Part shown: one piece after another, positions 67 through 12,111 of the stretch
Position numbering within the stretch: position 1 is the stretch's first letter
Layout of the letters: the number at the start of each line of letters is the position of its first letter
Assembly: GCF_022347685.1 (NCBI RefSeq)
Contig: NZ_JAKRGF010000004.1
Coordinates: 1-64,000 of the forward strand
DNA from: Thalassobius sp. Cn5-15
GTDB lineage: Bacteria; Pseudomonadota; Alphaproteobacteria; Rhodobacterales; Rhodobacteraceae
DNA length: 64,000 nucleotides
Reading direction: 5' to 3'
The notes under the pieces: model-generated
What the model was told of the DNA's origin: nothing
What the model saw: only the letters and a program-made list of their open reading frames with translations
The model's database searches: none
Position numbers and translations under genes: made by a program

Positions 67-704
67 AAAGAAAAAACAAAAAAACATGAAACTTTTTTAA
101 AAAAACAACAAAATCAATGGGTTGAGGCTTATGTTGTCGCAAACAAAAACAGCTACCGAACCCCAAAAGTGCCCAAGATAGGCGCAGAACACCAGAATTG
201 CTGCGACTCCTCCCATAAGTCTGGCAGAGACTCGGGAAAAAGGGGGCAGAATCCGACTCGGGCGCGTGTTGATTCCGCTGCTTAGACCGACTCGATTCCG
301 CAAAACCTGCATCTAGGTCGCTGCATAAGCCGTCTTCATCCCAGAGATACGCGTGTTTTCATGGCAATTGCTGCGCTGCGGCGCCAATATCCATGTCATT
401 TTAGCCGTATTATTGTTCAATTGTGATCTTTGCGCCCAAATTTCGCTCAACAGATCGGTAAATCCACGGAGTTCCCCCCCGACAAACTGCCCAAAACCTC
501 AGCAAGAGGTTTGGCTGTGGCTGCCTGCGGGACAGTCAAACGGGACATCAGGGAACGCGGGTGTGTGGCGACCATACGATTTGGAACCTCGGTACAGCCG
601 CCACACGGATCGCAACACAAGTTGCGGGGACAGGTAAGGCGAAAGGTCGACTGCACGCAAGTCGGGACGCGCCACCTTCTATATGAGCCCCGCAGGAGGA
701 CTGC
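67..704. other. long intergenic region upstream of urtA
   Basis: No convincing gene is present. Short open frames here have no ribosome binding site and no recognisable protein. From about 67 to 120 the sequence is A-rich. From about 490 to 690 it contains several strong consecutive inverted repeats, described separately as a candidate leader RNA. The length, unusual for this gene-dense window, suggests that the promoter and nitrogen control sites of the urea operon lie here, but no single operator could be assigned with confidence. Confidence 0.5.
491..690 (+). ncRNA. candidate structured leader RNA of the urt operon
   Basis: Several inverted repeats follow each other just before urtA. 491-500 pairs with 506-514 (ten bases, one bulged A). 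563-570 (GTGTGGCG) pairs perfectly with 599-606, with ACC 571-573 able to pair with GGT 591-593 inside. 611-616 pairs perfectly with 621-626 (CGCAAC, loop ACAA). GGCG 638-641 can pair with CGCC 670-673, enclosing CGACT 648-652 paired with AGTCG 660-664. Start codon and Shine-Dalgarno follow at 695-707. No known riboswitch consensus was recognised; the guanidine-I conserved blocks are not present. It may be a cis-regulatory element or part of a longer untranslated leader. Confidence 0.4.
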
Positions 705-1985
705 ATGACACTCTTGAAATCCACTCTGGCCAGCTCGCTTATCTTTGCCTCGCTCACTGGCGCAGCACTGGCAGCAGAAGACACCATTAAGGTTGGCGTA
801 TTACATTCGCTGTCCGGCACCATGGCGATTTCGGAAACCACTCTGAAAGACACCATGCTGATGCTGATCGACCAGCAGAACGCAAAGGGCGGCCTTTTGG
901 GCAAACAGCTGGAAGCGGTTGTTGTTGATCCCGCATCGGATTGGCCGCTGTTTGCCGAAAAGGCACGTGAGCTGCTGACCGTGCATGAGGTGGACGTGAT
1001 CTTTGGCAACTGGACCTCTGTATCGCGCAAATCCGTGCTGCCAGTGATCGAAGAGCTGAACGGCCTGCTGTTCTATCCGGTGCAATATGAAGGTGAGGAA
1101 TCATCAAAGAACGTTTTCTACACCGGCGCCGCACCGAACCAGCAGGCAATCCCCGCCACCGACTACTTCCTTGAGGAGCTGGGCGTAGAGAAGTTTGCAC
1201 TGCTGGGCACTGACTATGTTTACCCACGTACCACCAACAACATTCTGGAAAGCTACCTGAAGGGTAAAGGCATCGCCGAAGAGGACATCTTTGTGAACTA
1301 TACGCCCTTTGGCCATTCCGACTGGTCGAAGATTGTGGCCGACGTCGTAGCGCTGGGTGCGGATGGTAAGAAGGTTGGCGTAATCTCTACCATCAACGGC
1401 GACGCCAACATCGGCTTCTATAAGGAACTGGCGGCTGCGGGCATTTCCGCAGATGACATTCCTGTTGTCGCCTTCTCGGTTGGTGAAGAGGAACTGGCGG
1501 GTCTGGATACTTCGAACCTCGTGGGCCATCTGGCGGCATGGAACTACTTCCAGTCCGCCGAGAGTGAAGTGAACGCCTCCTTCGTGGACACATGGAAAGC
1601 AACCATGGGCGATGAGCGTGTGACCAACGACCCGATGGAAGCGCATTACATCGGCTTTAACATGTGGGTGAACGCCGCGAGTGAGGCTGGAAGCACCGAA
1701 GTCGACGCCGTGCGCGCCAAGATGTACGGGCAGGAATACCCGAACCTGACCGGCGGCACCGCGGTCATGCTGCCAAACCACCACCTGGCGAAACCGGTTC
1801 TGATCGGTGAGATCCAGGAAGACGGTCAGTTCGACATCATCAGCCAAACCGCTGAGGTCGCAGGTGACGCATGGACCGATTTCCTGCCAGCCTCCGCCGT
1901 ACTGAAATCAGATTGGAAAGATCTGGAATGCGGCATGTACAACACCGAAACCGGTACCTGCGTACAGCTTTTGTCGAACTACTAA
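705..1985 (+). CDS. urtA: urea ABC transporter, periplasmic urea-binding protein
   Basis: Binds urea in the periplasm and delivers it to the UrtBC permease. The 426-residue protein begins with a Sec signal peptide ending AALAA before EDTIKVG, followed by the type I periplasmic-binding fold: KVGVLHSLSGTMAISE at the start, then the UrtA-typical FGNWTSVSRKSVLPV and LFYPVQYEGEESSKNVFYTG. Length is normal for UrtA rather than for branched-chain amino acid binding proteins, and the four following genes complete a urea importer. Start chosen at the ATG with GGAGGA at 695-700. First gene of the operon; probably nitrogen-regulated, although only a structured leader, not an operator, is visible. Confidence 0.95.
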   Translation: MTLLKSTLASSLIFASLTGAALAAEDTIKVGVLHSLSGTMAISETTLKDTMLMLIDQQNAKGGLLGKQLEAVVVDPASDWPLFAEKARELLTVHEVDVIFGNWTSVSRKSVLPVIEELNGLLFYPVQYEGEESSKNVFYTGAAPNQQAIPATDYFLEELGVEKFALLGTDYVYPRTTNNILESYLKGKGIAEEDIFVNYTPFGHSDWSKIVADVVALGADGKKVGVISTINGDANIGFYKELAAAGISADDIPVVAFSVGEEELAGLDTSNLVGHLAAWNYFQSAESEVNASFVDTWKATMGDERVTNDPMEAHYIGFNMWVNAASEAGSTEVDAVRAKMYGQEYPNLTGGTAVMLPNHHLAKPVLIGEIQEDGQFDIISQTAEVAGDAWTDFLPASAVLKSDWKDLECGMYNTETGTCVQLLSNY

Positions 1986-2108
1986 GGTTGACTATATTAT
2001 GTGCGGAGGGGGCTTTGGTCCCCTCTGCGCACCGCCCTCCTGCGACACCTCGCGGACAGGCGGGTGCCCCTCATATTATACCGGCCCAAGACTGACGGAT
2101 CCCCGACA

Positions 2109-4076
2109 ATGAGACAGATATATGCAGCGGCTCTGGCACTGCTCTTGTTTTGTGTGACTGCGCTAAGTGCTGCCTCGCAGGACACACAGGATGCGCGGGC
2201 CATTCAGCCCCTCTTGCAACAGCATCAGGCGGTGATTGCAAAATCCTCGCGCAAGACAATCGGCCCCGTAATCGACGCCATTGCCGCCAGCGGGCTGCCA
2301 CAGGCACAACAGGTGCTGCAGGTCTGGGCGGCCAAGGATATGTGGATACGAAAATCCGACGGCCACTTCTTCATCGGGGAGAAGGTCGGGGGCAAAACCT
2401 ACCGCCTGACTGATTTTGACAGCGGCGATGTGGTAGGAGAGTTTCAGAAGGGGGATCTGAAACAGCTGAAACCCAACAGCGGCATCCGGGCGCTGATCGC
2501 CACCGCGCTGGTACAATTCAAGCTCACCGATCCTGACCCCGCCGCCCGCGCCGATGCGCTGCAATCCGTAGCGCGCAATCCTTCCGCCGATCAGCTGGCG
2601 CCGCTGCGTGCATCAATCAACAGCGAAGCGAACGCCGCGCTTGCCACGCAAAAGCTGCGGCTGGAACGGCTGCTGACCATTCGCTTTGGCGCCAGTGACG
2701 CCGAACGTATCAGCGCAATTGAGGATATGGCGGGAGATCTGGGCGTTGATCTGCGCGCCACGCTTAATCCCGTTGTCACCACCGTGCGCGAAGCTACACC
2801 CACGTTGCCGGACGCAAACATCGCCAAAACGCTGACCGTTGGCGAAGACATCAGCACGAGTGAGGCCTACGCCCTGCTGGTCGCCGCCAAACTGGCCCCC
2901 GCGCCGGTCAGCGACGATGTGATCCGCACCGCCCTTGCCGACCATATAGATGGGGGCCGCGTCGGTGACGTGCCGGTTGCGCAGCTATCTGATCCCGCCC
3001 AGCGCACCCGTGCCTACGAGGCCTTGACCAACGCGGGCAAGGTCGCCCCGCTAGTGGGCGAGGCCGATATTGCACAGGCTCTGGCCAACCACGTTATATA
3101 TGACCGCTATCTGGACCCATCCGCTGCCGTCACCGCAGCCGCCGCCAAGGCGCTGAAGGATATTGAGGTAAAGGTGGCCTTGAACCAGACGCTGGATCTG
3201 GGACTGGATGCGCTCTCGCTCGCCTCGATCTACTTCCTCGCCGCCATTGGACTGGCGATCACCTTTGGTGTGATGGGCGTCATTAACATGGCCCATGGCG
3301 AATTTATCATGATGGGCGCCTATACTGGGTATGTGGTGCAACAGATCGTGCCCGATCACACCCTGTCGATCCTGATCGCCATTCCCACGGCCTTTGCCGT
3401 GACCTTCGCCGCCGGCGTGGTGATGGAACGCCTGGTGATCCGCCATCTATATGCACGGCCCCTAGAAACACTGCTGGCGACCTTCGGAATTTCCATTGCA
3501 CTGCAACAGCTGGCAAAGAACATCTTTGGCACGCAGGCCCGCCCGCTGACCGCGCCCGGCTGGCTGGATGGCGCGTGGATGATGAATGATGTGGTGTCGA
3601 TCAGCTATATTCGCATCGCCATATTTGTACTGGCGTTGATCTTCCTTGCGGTGTTCCTGTTCATCATCAAACGCACCCGTCTTGGCCTTGAAACCCGTGC
3701 GGTGACCCAGAACCCGGCGATGGCGGCTCAGATGGGTATAAACCCCGGTCGGGTCAACATGCTGACCTTTGGCCTTGGCTCCGGCATTGCCGGTGTTGCG
3801 GGCGTCGCCATTGGATTGTTTGCCAAAGTCACATCTGAACTGGGCAGCGACTATATCGTTCAAAGCTTCATGACCGTGGTTGTCGGCGGTGTCGGCAACA
3901 TATGGGGCACACTGGCCGGTGCGGCACTGATCGGCTTCCTCCAGAAAGGGATCGAGTGGCTCAACCCGTCGAACACACTGGCGGCACAGACCTACATGAT
4001 CATCTTTATCATCATCTTCATACAATTCCGGCCACGAGGCATCATCGCTCTTAAGGGTCGCGCGGCGGGGGATTGA
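2109..4076 (+). CDS. urtB: urea ABC transporter, permease subunit UrtB
   Basis: Inner-membrane permease of the urea importer. The ATG at 2109 gives 655 residues starting with a signal sequence (MRQIYAAALALLLFCVTALS); an upstream in-frame GTG at 2001 would only add a residue stretch without family character. Residues about 25-355 form a large extra-cytoplasmic, alanine-rich helical region. The LivH-type permease begins near residue 360, with multiple membrane helices and the motif GVMGVINMAHGEFIMMGAY. An extended N-terminus is known for proteobacterial UrtB. The gene lies 123 bases after urtA and about 196 bases before urtC. Confidence 0.92.
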   Translation: MRQIYAAALALLLFCVTALSAASQDTQDARAIQPLLQQHQAVIAKSSRKTIGPVIDAIAASGLPQAQQVLQVWAAKDMWIRKSDGHFFIGEKVGGKTYRLTDFDSGDVVGEFQKGDLKQLKPNSGIRALIATALVQFKLTDPDPAARADALQSVARNPSADQLAPLRASINSEANAALATQKLRLERLLTIRFGASDAERISAIEDMAGDLGVDLRATLNPVVTTVREATPTLPDANIAKTLTVGEDISTSEAYALLVAAKLAPAPVSDDVIRTALADHIDGGRVGDVPVAQLSDPAQRTRAYEALTNAGKVAPLVGEADIAQALANHVIYDRYLDPSAAVTAAAAKALKDIEVKVALNQTLDLGLDALSLASIYFLAAIGLAITFGVMGVINMAHGEFIMMGAYTGYVVQQIVPDHTLSILIAIPTAFAVTFAAGVVMERLVIRHLYARPLETLLATFGISIALQQLAKNIFGTQARPLTAPGWLDGAWMMNDVVSISYIRIAIFVLALIFLAVFLFIIKRTRLGLETRAVTQNPAMAAQMGINPGRVNMLTFGLGSGIAGVAGVAIGLFAKVTSELGSDYIVQSFMTVVVGGVGNIWGTLAGAALIGFLQKGIEWLNPSNTLAAQTYMIIFIIIFIQFRPRGIIALKGRAAGD

Positions 4077-4207
4077 GCGATGTACGGATATCTAAAAGGC
4101 AGCCCACGAACCGCATGGGGCGGGTATGCCAAACAAACTGCCCGCTGTGCTTCGCACAACAGATCACAAACTCAATACCTAAAGACCGAAACCCCCGCCC
4201 CGTTGGG

Positions 4208-4230
4208 GGGCGGCGGTTCGGAAGCCGCCC
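4208..4230 (+). repeat. GC-rich hairpin between urtB and urtC
   Basis: GGGCGGC (4208-4214) pairs perfectly with GCCGCCC (4224-4230) across a nine-base loop. No T run follows, so it is not a standard terminator. It lies in the only sizeable gap (about 196 bases) inside the urt operon and could stabilise or separate transcript segments. An open frame at 4080-4283 spanning it has no ribosome binding site and looks non-coding. Confidence 0.5.
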
Positions 4231-4272
4231 GACCTGCCGGCTGGCATAACACTATTTTCGGAGGCACCGCAC

Positions 4273-5445
4273 ATGCAGCGTAGTTTCATTGCACGGAACC
4301 CTTCGGTTCTGATCTTCCTCTCCCTGTTGGCGCTTTTCACCCTTGTGGTCACGGTGCTGAGTGAAGGGGCTGGTGCAGGTTTCATCTCCACCTCTTTCAT
4401 CAAAACATTGGGCAAAACGCTCTGCCTCTGCCTCATTGCAGTGGCGATGGATCTGATCTGGGGCTACGCGGGTATCCTCAGCCTTGGCCATTTCGCCTTC
4501 TTCGGGCTGGGCGGCTACATGATCGGCATGTGGCTGATGTATGAACGCACCCGTCTGATTGTAGTGGACTCCCTCAACCAGACCGAGATTCCCCCGACAG
4601 AGGCAGAGGTGATTGAGGCCATCGGCACGCAGATCTTCGGCGTTGTGGGATCGTCGGACTTTCCGATGATCTGGGCCTTTGCTGACAGTTTGATATTGCA
4701 ACTGGCGCTCGTGGTGCTGGTGCCAGGCATGCTGGCGCTGATCTTTGGCTGGCTGGCGTTTCGCAGCCGTGTCACTGGCGTATACCTGTCAATCCTGACA
4801 CAGGCGATGACACTGGCCCTCGCCCTCTACCTGTTTCAGAACGACAGCGGCTTGCGCGGCAACAACGGTCTGTCCGGCCTGCAAAACCTGCCGGGCGTCA
4901 CCGCGTCACAGGATATCGTATCGCTGTGGTTTCTCTGGGCATCAGCCTTTGCTCTAGGCGCGGGCTACTTCCTTGCGGCATGGGTCGTATCGGGCAAGTT
5001 CGGCTCGGTCATCTGCGGCATTCGCGACAATGAGGCCCGCGTGCGCTTCCTTGGTTATTCGGTGGAGGCGTACAAACTCGCCCTCTTCACCCTGACCGCC
5101 TGCCTCGCGGCCATCGCGGGGGCGCTTTATTACCCGCAGGCCGGCATCATAAATCCAGCAGAGATTGCGCCGATTGCGTCCATCTATCTTGCAGTCTGGG
5201 TTGCCATTGGCGGGCGCGGGCGGCTTTATGGTGCGGTCATTGGTGCAGCTTTTGTCAGCCTTCTCAGCACATGGTTCACAGGCGGGCAGGCCCCGGATCT
5301 GCCCATGGGCGTCTATACAGTGAAATGGGTGGATTGGTGGCTGGTGCTGCTGGGCGTGTCTTTCGTCCTCGTAACACTCTTTGCGCCCAAAGGCATCGGC
5401 GGGCTATTTGACCTGATCCCAACAAAGAAAGGGTCAGAAGAATGA
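4273..5445 (+). CDS. urtC: urea ABC transporter, permease subunit UrtC
   Basis: Second membrane subunit of the urea importer, 390 residues, LivM-like. Membrane helices are visible from residue about 10 onward, with DLIWGYAGILSLGHFAFFGLGGYMIGMWL near residue 65 and the UrtC-typical insertion containing VVDSLNQTEIPPTEAEVIEAI. The C-terminal half carries FGSVICGIRDNEARVRFLGY, the cytoplasmic coupling loop that contacts the ATPases. The start is preceded by GGAGG at 4260-4264. Its stop overlaps the urtD start by four bases, showing translational coupling. Confidence 0.94.
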   Translation: MQRSFIARNPSVLIFLSLLALFTLVVTVLSEGAGAGFISTSFIKTLGKTLCLCLIAVAMDLIWGYAGILSLGHFAFFGLGGYMIGMWLMYERTRLIVVDSLNQTEIPPTEAEVIEAIGTQIFGVVGSSDFPMIWAFADSLILQLALVVLVPGMLALIFGWLAFRSRVTGVYLSILTQAMTLALALYLFQNDSGLRGNNGLSGLQNLPGVTASQDIVSLWFLWASAFALGAGYFLAAWVVSGKFGSVICGIRDNEARVRFLGYSVEAYKLALFTLTACLAAIAGALYYPQAGIINPAEIAPIASIYLAVWVAIGGRGRLYGAVIGAAFVSLLSTWFTGGQAPDLPMGVYTVKWVDWWLVLLGVSFVLVTLFAPKGIGGLFDLIPTKKGSEE

Positions 5446-6182
5446 GTATGCTTCTGGAAGTGTCCGGCGTGTCGGTCAGCTTTGACGGATTCAAGGCGAT
5501 CAACAACCTCAGCTTCAACATCGGTGAGGCCGAGCTGCGGGCGATCATCGGCCCTAATGGCGCGGGCAAGACGACGTTTATGGATATCGTCACCGGTAAA
5601 ACCCGCCCGGATGAGGGGCGGGTGATCTGGGGCGAAAAATCGGTGTCGCTGCTGAAAATGTCTGAAGCGCAGATCGCGCAGGCGGGTGTGGGGCGCAAGT
5701 TCCAGAAACCCACCGTGTTTGAGGATCAGACCGTGCAAGAAAACCTGCTGGTGTCACTGAAAAACCCACGCAGCTGGCTGTCGGTTCTGACCTATCGCCC
5801 GACGGCCGAGGATCTGGGCCGCGTCGATGCACTGGCGGAGGAGATTGGCCTAAGCGATCAACTGACCCGTCTGGCGGGGGAGCTGAGCCATGGTCAGAAA
5901 CAGTGGCTGGAAATCGGGATGCTGCTGGCGCAGGAACCGCGTCTGTTGCTGGTCGATGAACCAGCGGCGGGCATGACCGTCACCGAACGCCAGCACACCA
6001 CCGACATTCTGGTGGAGGCCGCGAAGACCCGCGCCGTGGTGGTGGTGGAACACGATATGGAATTTGTCCGCCGCCTGAACTGCAAGGTCACCGTCCTGCA
6101 CGAAGGCAGCGTTCTGGCCGAAGGATCACTGGACCACGTAACCGCAAATAAGGACGTGATCGACGTCTATCTAGGGCGCTAA
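5442..6182 (+). CDS. urtD: urea ABC transporter, ATP-binding subunit UrtD
   Basis: One of two ATPases powering urea import; LivG-like, 246 residues. Walker A is GPNGAGKTT near residue 37, the signature motif is ELSHGQKQW near 146, Walker B is RLLLVDEPAAGM near 167 and the switch histidine is in VVVEHDMEFV near 202. The motif GVGRKFQKPTVFEDQTVQENL is characteristic of UrtD. ATG overlaps the urtC stop; urtE follows three bases after its own stop. Confidence 0.95.
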   Translation: MSMLLEVSGVSVSFDGFKAINNLSFNIGEAELRAIIGPNGAGKTTFMDIVTGKTRPDEGRVIWGEKSVSLLKMSEAQIAQAGVGRKFQKPTVFEDQTVQENLLVSLKNPRSWLSVLTYRPTAEDLGRVDALAEEIGLSDQLTRLAGELSHGQKQWLEIGMLLAQEPRLLLVDEPAAGMTVTERQHTTDILVEAAKTRAVVVVEHDMEFVRRLNCKVTVLHEGSVLAEGSLDHVTANKDVIDVYLGR

Positions 6183-6185
6183 GCG

Positions 6186-6881
6186 ATGCTGACACTTGAT
6201 AATTTGACGCTGCACTATGGCCATTCACAAATCCTGCACGGCGTGTCGATGGAGGCCGCGCAGGGCGAGGTCACCTGCCTGATGGGCACCAACGGTGTAG
6301 GCAAAACCAGCCTGATCAAGGCCATCGCTGGCACCCACGCGCGATCAGGTGGCAATATGACACTGGATGGCGAAGCGCTGCCAGTGCTGCCACCACATGC
6401 ATTGGCCCGCAAGGGCATCGCCACGGTGCCACAGGGCCGCGATGTGTTTCCGCTACTGACGGTCACAGAAAACCTGCAAACAGGGTTTGCCTGTCTGCCC
6501 CGCGATCAGCATTTTATTCCAGATGAGATCTATGACCTGTTTCCGGTGCTGAAAAAGATGCAGAACCGCCGTGGCGGCGATCTGTCTGGCGGACAGCAGC
6601 AACAACTGGCGATTGCCCGTGCGCTGATCACCAAACCCAAGCTGTTGTTGCTGGATGAGCCAACAGAGGGCATTCAGCCCAACATCATCCAGCAAATCGG
6701 CGAAGTAATCCGCCATCTGCGCACCCAAGGCAGCATGGCGATTGTCCTGGTCGAACAGTATTTCGATTTCGCCTACGATCTTGCCGACCGTTTCAGCGTT
6801 CTTCGGCGCGGCGAGGTAATTCTGCAAGGCGACAAAAACAACGTCAGCCGTGACGAAGTGCTTGCGGGCGTATCAGTCTAA
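6186..6881 (+). CDS. urtE: urea ABC transporter, ATP-binding subunit UrtE
   Basis: Second ATPase of the importer, LivF-like, 231 residues. It shows Walker A (GTNGVGKTS, near 36), the Q-loop region GIATVPQGRDVFPLLTVTENL, signature DLSGGQQQQLAIARAL near 139, Walker B KLLLLDEPTEGIQPN and the switch histidine position occupied by Q in LVEQYFDFA, as is usual for UrtE/LivF. Last gene of the urt operon; the next gene is convergent, seven bases away. Urease genes, which would use the imported urea, are not in the window. Confidence 0.95.
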   Translation: MLTLDNLTLHYGHSQILHGVSMEAAQGEVTCLMGTNGVGKTSLIKAIAGTHARSGGNMTLDGEALPVLPPHALARKGIATVPQGRDVFPLLTVTENLQTGFACLPRDQHFIPDEIYDLFPVLKKMQNRRGGDLSGGQQQQLAIARALITKPKLLLLDEPTEGIQPNIIQQIGEVIRHLRTQGSMAIVLVEQYFDFAYDLADRFSVLRRGEVILQGDKNNVSRDEVLAGVSV

Positions 6882-10662: not shown

Positions 10663-12111
10663 ATGCTGCACCAACGCCTCAAACAGCTACATTTTTTGGA
10701 TATGCTCGAAGCCGTGAACAAAGTTGCCGACATCGAACCTCTTGCCGACGAGAGAACCGACACCAACCGTCGTCCAATGTACATGGTGGACATGTTCGCG
10801 GGCTGTGGTGGCCTGTCCATGGGCATGGAGAACGCGGACTTTGTTCCTGTCTTCGTGAACGAACTGAATCCGGACGCGATGGCAACCTATCTAAAAAACC
10901 GCCATCACTCCTTAGGAGGATTGCATTTCTCGGCGAATGAGGACCTCCGATGCAACGATGCCAACGACTTGCGTGGTCCGAGGCTTGAGCAACTGGTGTC
11001 CGATCTCAGGAATATTCCCGAACTGGGACTTCAATTCGATCTGGGAGCGAGTGCCGAGACAGGCGCTGGCTCCAATCTTGATGTTCTCGCGGGCGGCCCA
11101 CCTTGCCAAGGCTTTTCCGGCATCGGGATCAGACGCTCTTATGACGTGGATAAGGCAGACTTGCCGTCCAACCACCTGTTCGTTCGCATGGCACACGTCA
11201 TTCGCAAGCTTCGTCCCCGAATCTTCCTTTTCGAGAACGTGCAGGGCCTACTGAACGCGAAATGGACACGCGGTGGGACTGATAAAATTTTCCCGGATAT
11301 CCTAGCCGAATTCCGTTCGATCCCCGGCTACACGGTTCGCTATTCACTTGTAAAAGCCAAGGACTACGGTGTGCCTCAGAACCGTCCTCGCGTTCTGCTG
11401 GTCGGAATTCGCGATGACATCGCAGCTTCTTGTGAATGGCTAGAGCCGCAAGCCCATAAAGAAGATGCCGTGACATGTGGCTTCCTCCCCAAGCCTACAG
11501 GAGGCTTTCCAGACCTTATCGACCTTCTGGGTGATTTGATCGACGATAATGTTGCCGATATCTTGCAGAGCGGAGATTTCGCGAAGGGGCCATTCATAAC
11601 TGACAAATATCCTTCGACGCCAAAGACTGATCTTCAGAGGCAGCTTCGCACGGCCCCACACTGGTTCCAGAGCAAGACCGTGCCCTTGACCGAACAAGAG
11701 TACAGCAAACACAAGCCCAATATCGTTGCCAAGTTCCAGCACATGCTGGACAACAATGGCGAGATCCCGGTTCACTTTAAAACCAAAAAATTTTCCCAAC
11801 GCGTTCTTCGGGCACGTTGGGGTAATACTGAACCCAACATTACTGCTACGTCACTGGCAGATGACTACGTTCATTTTAGCCAGCCGCGCGCCCTGACGGT
11901 ACGTGAATGGGCACGTCTTCAGTTGTTCCCTGACTGGTACCAATTCGCGGGTAAGCGAACCACAGGTGGCCTGCGGCGTGCAGGCAACCCGCGTGAAGGT
12001 CTGTTCGACCGGGAAGTTCCGAAATACACCCAAATCGGAAATGCCGTTCCTGTTCGGCTAGCTGAGGCCGTGGGTGAACATTTTCGCAAAATTATCGACG
12101 CATCAGTTTAA
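10663..12111 (+). CDS. DNA (cytosine-5-)-methyltransferase
   Basis: Transfers methyl groups to C5 of cytosine within a specific DNA site; 482 residues from the ATG at 10663 (later ATGs at 10702 or 10780 are possible because no strong ribosome binding site is visible). C5-methyltransferase motifs occur in order: I, VDMFAGCGGLSMG (41-53); IV, GGPPCQGFS with catalytic C148; VI, ENV (191-193); VIII, QNRPRVLLVGIR; IX, REWARLQLFPDWYQF; X, GNAVPVRLAEAVG at the end. The target-recognition segment between VIII and IX has no assigned specificity. It is convergent with, and shares its last bases with, a putative restriction endonuclease, so it is probably the protective half of a type II restriction-modification pair. 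Confidence 0.92.
   Translation: MLHQRLKQLHFLDMLEAVNKVADIEPLADERTDTNRRPMYMVDMFAGCGGLSMGMENADFVPVFVNELNPDAMATYLKNRHHSLGGLHFSANEDLRCNDANDLRGPRLEQLVSDLRNIPELGLQFDLGASAETGAGSNLDVLAGGPPCQGFSGIGIRRSYDVDKADLPSNHLFVRMAHVIRKLRPRIFLFENVQGLLNAKWTRGGTDKIFPDILAEFRSIPGYTVRYSLVKAKDYGVPQNRPRVLLVGIRDDIAASCEWLEPQAHKEDAVTCGFLPKPTGGFPDLIDLLGDLIDDNVADILQSGDFAKGPFITDKYPSTPKTDLQRQLRTAPHWFQSKTVPLTEQEYSKHKPNIVAKFQHMLDNNGEIPVHFKTKKFSQRVLRARWGNTEPNITATSLADDYVHFSQPRALTVREWARLQLFPDWYQFAGKRTTGGLRRAGNPREGLFDREVPKYTQIGNAVPVRLAEAVGEHFRKIIDASV

Follow-up and report, generated by a model that had tools for sequence, protein, structure and literature searches.

Do the inverted repeats crowded in front of the urea importer genes of Thalassobius sp. 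Cn5-15 form a regulatory RNA, and, if so, how might it act on those genes? For marine Rhodobacteraceae, urea ranks among the major sources of nitrogen, and the search of papers and families turned up no RNA control of urt genes. The window, that is, the whole stretch of DNA analyzed here (64,000 nucleotides), is the start of a contig of this Rhodobacteraceae genome. The urtABCDE genes form its first operon (705-6881), and each of the five scores above the curated NCBIfam cutoff; the leader RNA lies within the 150 bases 5' of the urtA start codon. The first gene and its ribosome binding site are as follows.

705 to 1985, + strand: urtA, urea ABC transporter substrate-binding protein, first gene of urtABCDE (TIGR03407, 535.8 bits; cutoff, 492.75)
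694 to 700, + strand: Shine-Dalgarno sequence AGGAGGA of urtA, read from the sequence

In UrtB (2106-4076), the match to the family model begins at residue 367, leaving approximately 365 N-terminal residues as an extra region. No urease gene was seen directly 3' of urtE within the window, and the urease alpha gene of the same genome lies on a contig separate from urtABCDE (G000:C16:47945-48349). An open reading frame at 10663-12111 carries C5 cytosine-methyltransferase motifs (GGPPCQGFS) and is possibly part of a restriction-modification locus.

The minimum free energy of positions 480-700 is -79.3 kcal/mol (z = -1.08), and 27 of 200 shuffled sequences were as stable. Folding energy, being nonsignificant, was rejected as proof of structure, and the case therefore rests on the comparison of relatives. 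The urtA upstream regions of 80 relatives and of the nearest genomes were lined up. From 35 sequences, a model containing P1, the P1 tip, the P2 core, and P3 was constructed, and 91 sequences were then aligned to it. RNAalifold on the first MAFFT alignment returned P1 and P2 only, with zero covariation, and did not find P3, the reasons being a shift of P3 by one to two bases in that alignment and the near-invariance of the type A P1. The remedy was a helix search in each sequence together with the model alignment, and this search uncovered P3, in which the end of the P2 3' arm and the next bases pair just 5' of the Shine-Dalgarno sequence. The parts of the leader, here of type A, are located in the window as follows.

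560 to 705, + strand: whole urtA leader RNA, type A; covariance model R1 matches 558-707 (100.8 bits; E = 8.9e-28)
563 to 606, + strand: P1 hairpin, in which GUGUGGCG (563-570) pairs with CGCCACAC (599-606); compensatory changes and covariation rank
577 to 591, + strand: P1 tip, in which CGA (577-579) pairs with UCG (589-591) and closes the conserved UUGGA loop; compensatory YGA/UCR changes
612 to 625, + strand: P2 hairpin GCAAC-ACAA-GUUGC, 96% complementary and almost without covariation
624 to 629, + strand: P3 5' arm GCGGGG; four pairs with GC/AU/CG replacements, first and fourth in a structure-blind test
635 to 636, + strand: conserved UA, at a near-fixed distance from CAAG
658 to 661, + strand: conserved CAAG, with AA in 90 to 91 of 91 sequences
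688 to 693, + strand: P3 3' arm CCCCGC, which pairs with 624-629 and ends against the Shine-Dalgarno sequence

The conserved blocks follow the order GUGUGUGRCGRCC, YGA, UUGGACC, UCR, and GGCCGCCACAC, then UGCAAC-loop-GUUGC, and then GGGG, UA, CAAG, CCCCGC, and the Shine-Dalgarno sequence. P1 contains a recurrent A-C mismatch at 571/598. The P2 5' arm GCAAC is nearly invariant (one A to U among 91 sequences), the P3 5' arm overlaps the last two bases of P2, and a possible extension of P3, U622-U623 with A694-G695, would cover the first Shine-Dalgarno bases. The distance from UA to CAAG is identical in 82 of the 91 relatives, while other loops vary; it is one base longer in the window, and no single helix accounting for it was found in the 91 sequences. 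A further helix, P4, proposed as conserved in the stretch from UA to CAAG, was dropped for want of statistical support. The idea that the P1 loop (ACCU/CCUC) pairs with AGGU or the Shine-Dalgarno sequence was dropped by eye, as many relatives lack this pairing.

The model alignment of 91 sequences contains double changes in 15 of 23 pairs, with 142 double-changed cells versus 37 ± 5 in shuffles, and has a covariation score of 0.213, compared with 0.096 in shuffles and 0.03 to 0.06 when the partners are slid. Replacements in P1 include UA to CG (13 of 91 relatives) and CG to UA (7 of 91). Since fitting to a model biases an alignment toward the modeled structure, a second, structure-blind alignment of the 91 sequences was made with MAFFT, and an APC-corrected G-test served to rank every pair of columns in it. 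P3 626-691 came first, followed in order by P1 566-603, P1 573-596, P3 627-690, a pair immediately outside the P1 stem (562-607), a loop pair, and P1 569-600 (rank 7); P3 628-689 and 629-688 were also inside the top 11. P1 and P3 were thus both found independently of the model. P2 is nearly invariant in the 91 sequences, that is, conserved without covariation evidence of pairing. An undescribed class of structured leader RNA tied to the urea importer is almost certainly real.

The initial annotation had proposed a cis-regulatory RNA, possibly of an undescribed class, at 491-690, made of consecutive inverted repeats before urtA. This is supported by strong covariation, near-exclusive association with urtA, a constrained position relative to the Shine-Dalgarno sequence, and the lack of an Rfam match. 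The alignment of urtA upstream regions with a covariance model, which the annotation had put forward as a check, recovers the window at the E value given above, and the relatives conserve P1, P2, and P3, with P1 and P3 strongly covarying. The repeats are all present in the sequence but differ in standing among relatives. Those at 563-606 (P1) and 611-626 (P2) are conserved in the 91 relatives. The repeat at 638-673 folds in the window, but its stem is specific to close relatives, and only UA, CAAG, and their near-fixed spacing are kept. The repeat at 491-514 is not conserved as a leader stem (in L004 and L005 both arms are changed and two pairs are broken) and belongs to the promoter-zone DNA. 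The boundaries had to be redrawn accordingly: the RNA begins near 560, the key 3' helix arm is at 688-693, and P3, the helix with the strongest support, had been overlooked.

The R1 model found one full-length site each in 71 of 295 Rhodobacteraceae genomes, and the R2 model, built for type B, matched in 27 genomes. The sites stand before or beside urtA in 68 of 70 inspected cases for R1 and in 24 of 27 for R2, and no convincing second target gene was found among the matches of the two models. Exceptions away from urtA include L181, which is weak (20.8 bits) and inside a gene, and the weak L207, L208, and L210. Across 337 Alphaproteobacteria genomes, the sole match outside Rhodobacteraceae is a borderline one (E = 0.005). 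Leader copies at L162:1385-1522 and L200:1501-1652 occur in the single-contig genomes G132 and G154, in which urtA was not found; in L162 a good P3 3' arm is no longer present, and both copies are probably remnants after loss of the urt operon. Three urtA loci from outside Rhodobacteraceae (L091, L111, and L087) lack the leader RNA and, as judged by eye, carry a sigma-54-like TGGCA-N-TTGC within 160 nt upstream.

Some urtA leaders that R1 scored weakly or missed have the same order of parts in other sequences, and three types share one layout (A, 91 sequences; B, 13; C, 10). By-eye sorting of 80 urtA loci fetched by protein gave 40 of type A, 13 of type B, 10 of type C, and 17 with none recognized; urtA loci without a recognized leader include those of Hyphomicrobiales, Roseibium, and Rhodospirillaceae. 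In type B, P1 is closed by CGCGC and has the loop AUC-CUGGCA-GAU, and the AUC/GAU tip around CUGGCA is replaced by GUC/GAC or UUC/GAA in some sequences. Type C has GUGCGAUGG/CCAYCGCAC. In types B and C, the upstream arm and a downstream arm beside the Shine-Dalgarno sequence are each complementary to the P2 3' arm, and this sharing is complete, which makes P2 and the downstream helix mutually exclusive. The downstream pairing of type B covaries (UA, CG, and UG), with the upstream arm fixed; at column 64, C/U varies with the downstream partner G/A, while the upstream partner stays A. Two conserved, mutually exclusive helices have, at the level of sequence, the look of a switch, as in a riboswitch expression platform.

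The reading that we favor, and consider somewhat probable from these comparisons, is that the leader switches urtABCDE at the level of translation. As a cis-regulatory RNA restricted to one family, it would control the translation of urtA, and thereby the urea importer operon, as a layer on top of the predicted NtrC transcriptional control. Formation of P2 would leave the P3 3' arm free and permit ribosome loading, and formation of P3 would set a helix against the Shine-Dalgarno sequence and block ribosomes. P3 lies -2 to +4 nt from the Shine-Dalgarno core in 87 of 90 leaders measured, no terminator-like site was found in the leader, and the leader contains no conserved reading frame, the distances between conserved elements not keeping frame; control of ribosome loading is the simplest reading of this constrained distance and these absences. 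The computed folds of the window (P2, -54.7 kcal/mol; P2 with a short P3, -51.6 kcal/mol; full P3, -49.9 kcal/mol) favor P2, with full P3 weaker by about 5 kcal/mol. The trigger would thus have to favor P3, or else the direction that we infer, with P3 as the off state and P2 as the ribosome-loading state, would be reversed. These calculated energies appear close enough for a switch, which is not proof of one.

With less confidence, the P1 loop, GCAAC, UA, and CAAG may form a binding core, and a trigger acting on it might decide between P2 and P3. The trigger is most likely urea or a nitrogen-status metabolite rather than a protein, although we hold this less firmly. Two features expected of a riboswitch are present: a structured RNA, conserved in the leader of a transport gene that is related, and, as judged from the sequences of types A, B, and C, mutually exclusive helices at the ribosome binding site. 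The status of a metabolite riboswitch is plausible. Direct binding of urea or an immediate urea-derived metabolite, which would make this the first natural urea-sensing riboswitch, with three structural types, seems to us rather unlikely. A covariance model search found no copy of the leader at the urease alpha gene of its own genome, which would be odd if plain urea were the signal.

The alternative that survives best is that the leader is a site for an RNA-binding regulatory protein, which would sit on P1 and GCAAC and drive the same P2/P3 switch. The near-invariant GCAAC and the conserved hairpin loop suit a protein as well as a ligand, as does the single gene target, and we regard this as unlikely but deserving of some weight. 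Control by CsrA was rejected, as CsrA is absent from all ten leader-bearing genomes tested, in a search that was positive in E. coli, B. subtilis, and T. maritima. ANTAR proteins are missing from 4 of the 10 (G105, G009, G325, and G107). ANTAR-target RNAs have an A at loop position 1, which the hairpin loops of the leader lack, and an ANTAR-target RNA was likewise rejected. No other candidate protein was identified.

An element for mRNA stability, processing, or small-RNA targeting, without any switch, is improbable. Hairpins in leaders near the 5' end often protect mRNA, and a small RNA could pair with conserved loops that are accessible, but neither role would explain the covariation of P3, the arm that P2 and P3 share in each of the three types, or the narrow range of distances to the Shine-Dalgarno sequence.

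The view that a transcription factor uses the repeats as operators in the DNA, and that they are not RNA structure, is largely refuted. A separate palindromic operator does lie upstream.

429 to 452, + strand: weak copy of the conserved upstream operator, consensus GCCTAAAAATTAGGC; window score only 8.8

This palindrome is found mostly 80 to 120 nt 5' of P1, at 36 type A and 14 type B loci, with a motif log-likelihood of 328 versus 86 to 88 in shuffles. NtrC control of the urt genes in Rhodobacterales has been predicted (PMC5343134), and the element may be the putative NtrC operator of Rhodobacterales; its position supports a transcription start upstream of P1. Upstream searches for sigma-54 and simple NtrC-type patterns gave no enrichment worth reporting. 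The leader stems, unlike a fixed operator, vary freely yet stay complementary, and about 60 nt separate the two arms of P3, which touch the Shine-Dalgarno sequence. Ribosome-mediated attenuation by a small upstream reading frame has a precedent in the same order, the uORFC-8-2 motif at cysS (PMC8632094), but is scarcely credible here, as the element distances are out of frame, no frame is consistently open, no conserved short frame is kept, and a terminator is absent.

A known class was also rejected: among the Rfam 15 families, guanidine and SAM/SAH included, no covariance model matched at E ≤ 10 in the window or at E ≤ 1 in 19 loci of types A, B, and C. Guanidine control, which the initial annotation had raised, finds no support in that search. 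The motifs of Weinberg et al. 2017 should reportedly be included in Rfam 15. A urea riboswitch or urtA motif was not found named in the literature searched, and three motif surveys have none in their main texts, with an unnamed listing in their supplements being possible. A layer of RNA control reserved for a single importer would show how cells adjust uptake beyond the action of NtrC. Should urea be the ligand, the recognition of a tiny neutral molecule by RNA would become directly testable, with guanidine-binding RNAs as the comparison, and the 91-sequence alignment and the two models provide a ready starting point.

Several known systems resemble the urtA leader in part. ANTAR-target RNAs are also hairpins in the leaders of nitrogen genes but differ in the loop rule given above. 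HRC-8-4 and uORFC-8-2 (Brewer et al. 2021, PMC8632094) are likewise order-restricted structured elements from comparative genomics; they are, however, linked to cco/hvrB and cysS and are terminator-like or attenuator-like, and the main text of that paper mentions neither urea nor urt. Guanidine riboswitches (ykkC-type classes) are similarly leaders of genes for small nitrogen compounds, whereas the urtA leader matches no guanidine class in Rfam. The SAM/SAH riboswitch (RF01727) is found in Rhodobacterales only and consistently before one gene, metK (PMC2864571), and it illustrates that a real riboswitch can be confined to one order and to the leader of one gene. The urtA leader has no match to RF01727 and differs from it in gene and structure. 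By analogy, the SAM/SAH riboswitch nevertheless appears to be the closest precedent for its narrow distribution, which would place the urtA leader among the riboswitch-like leaders.
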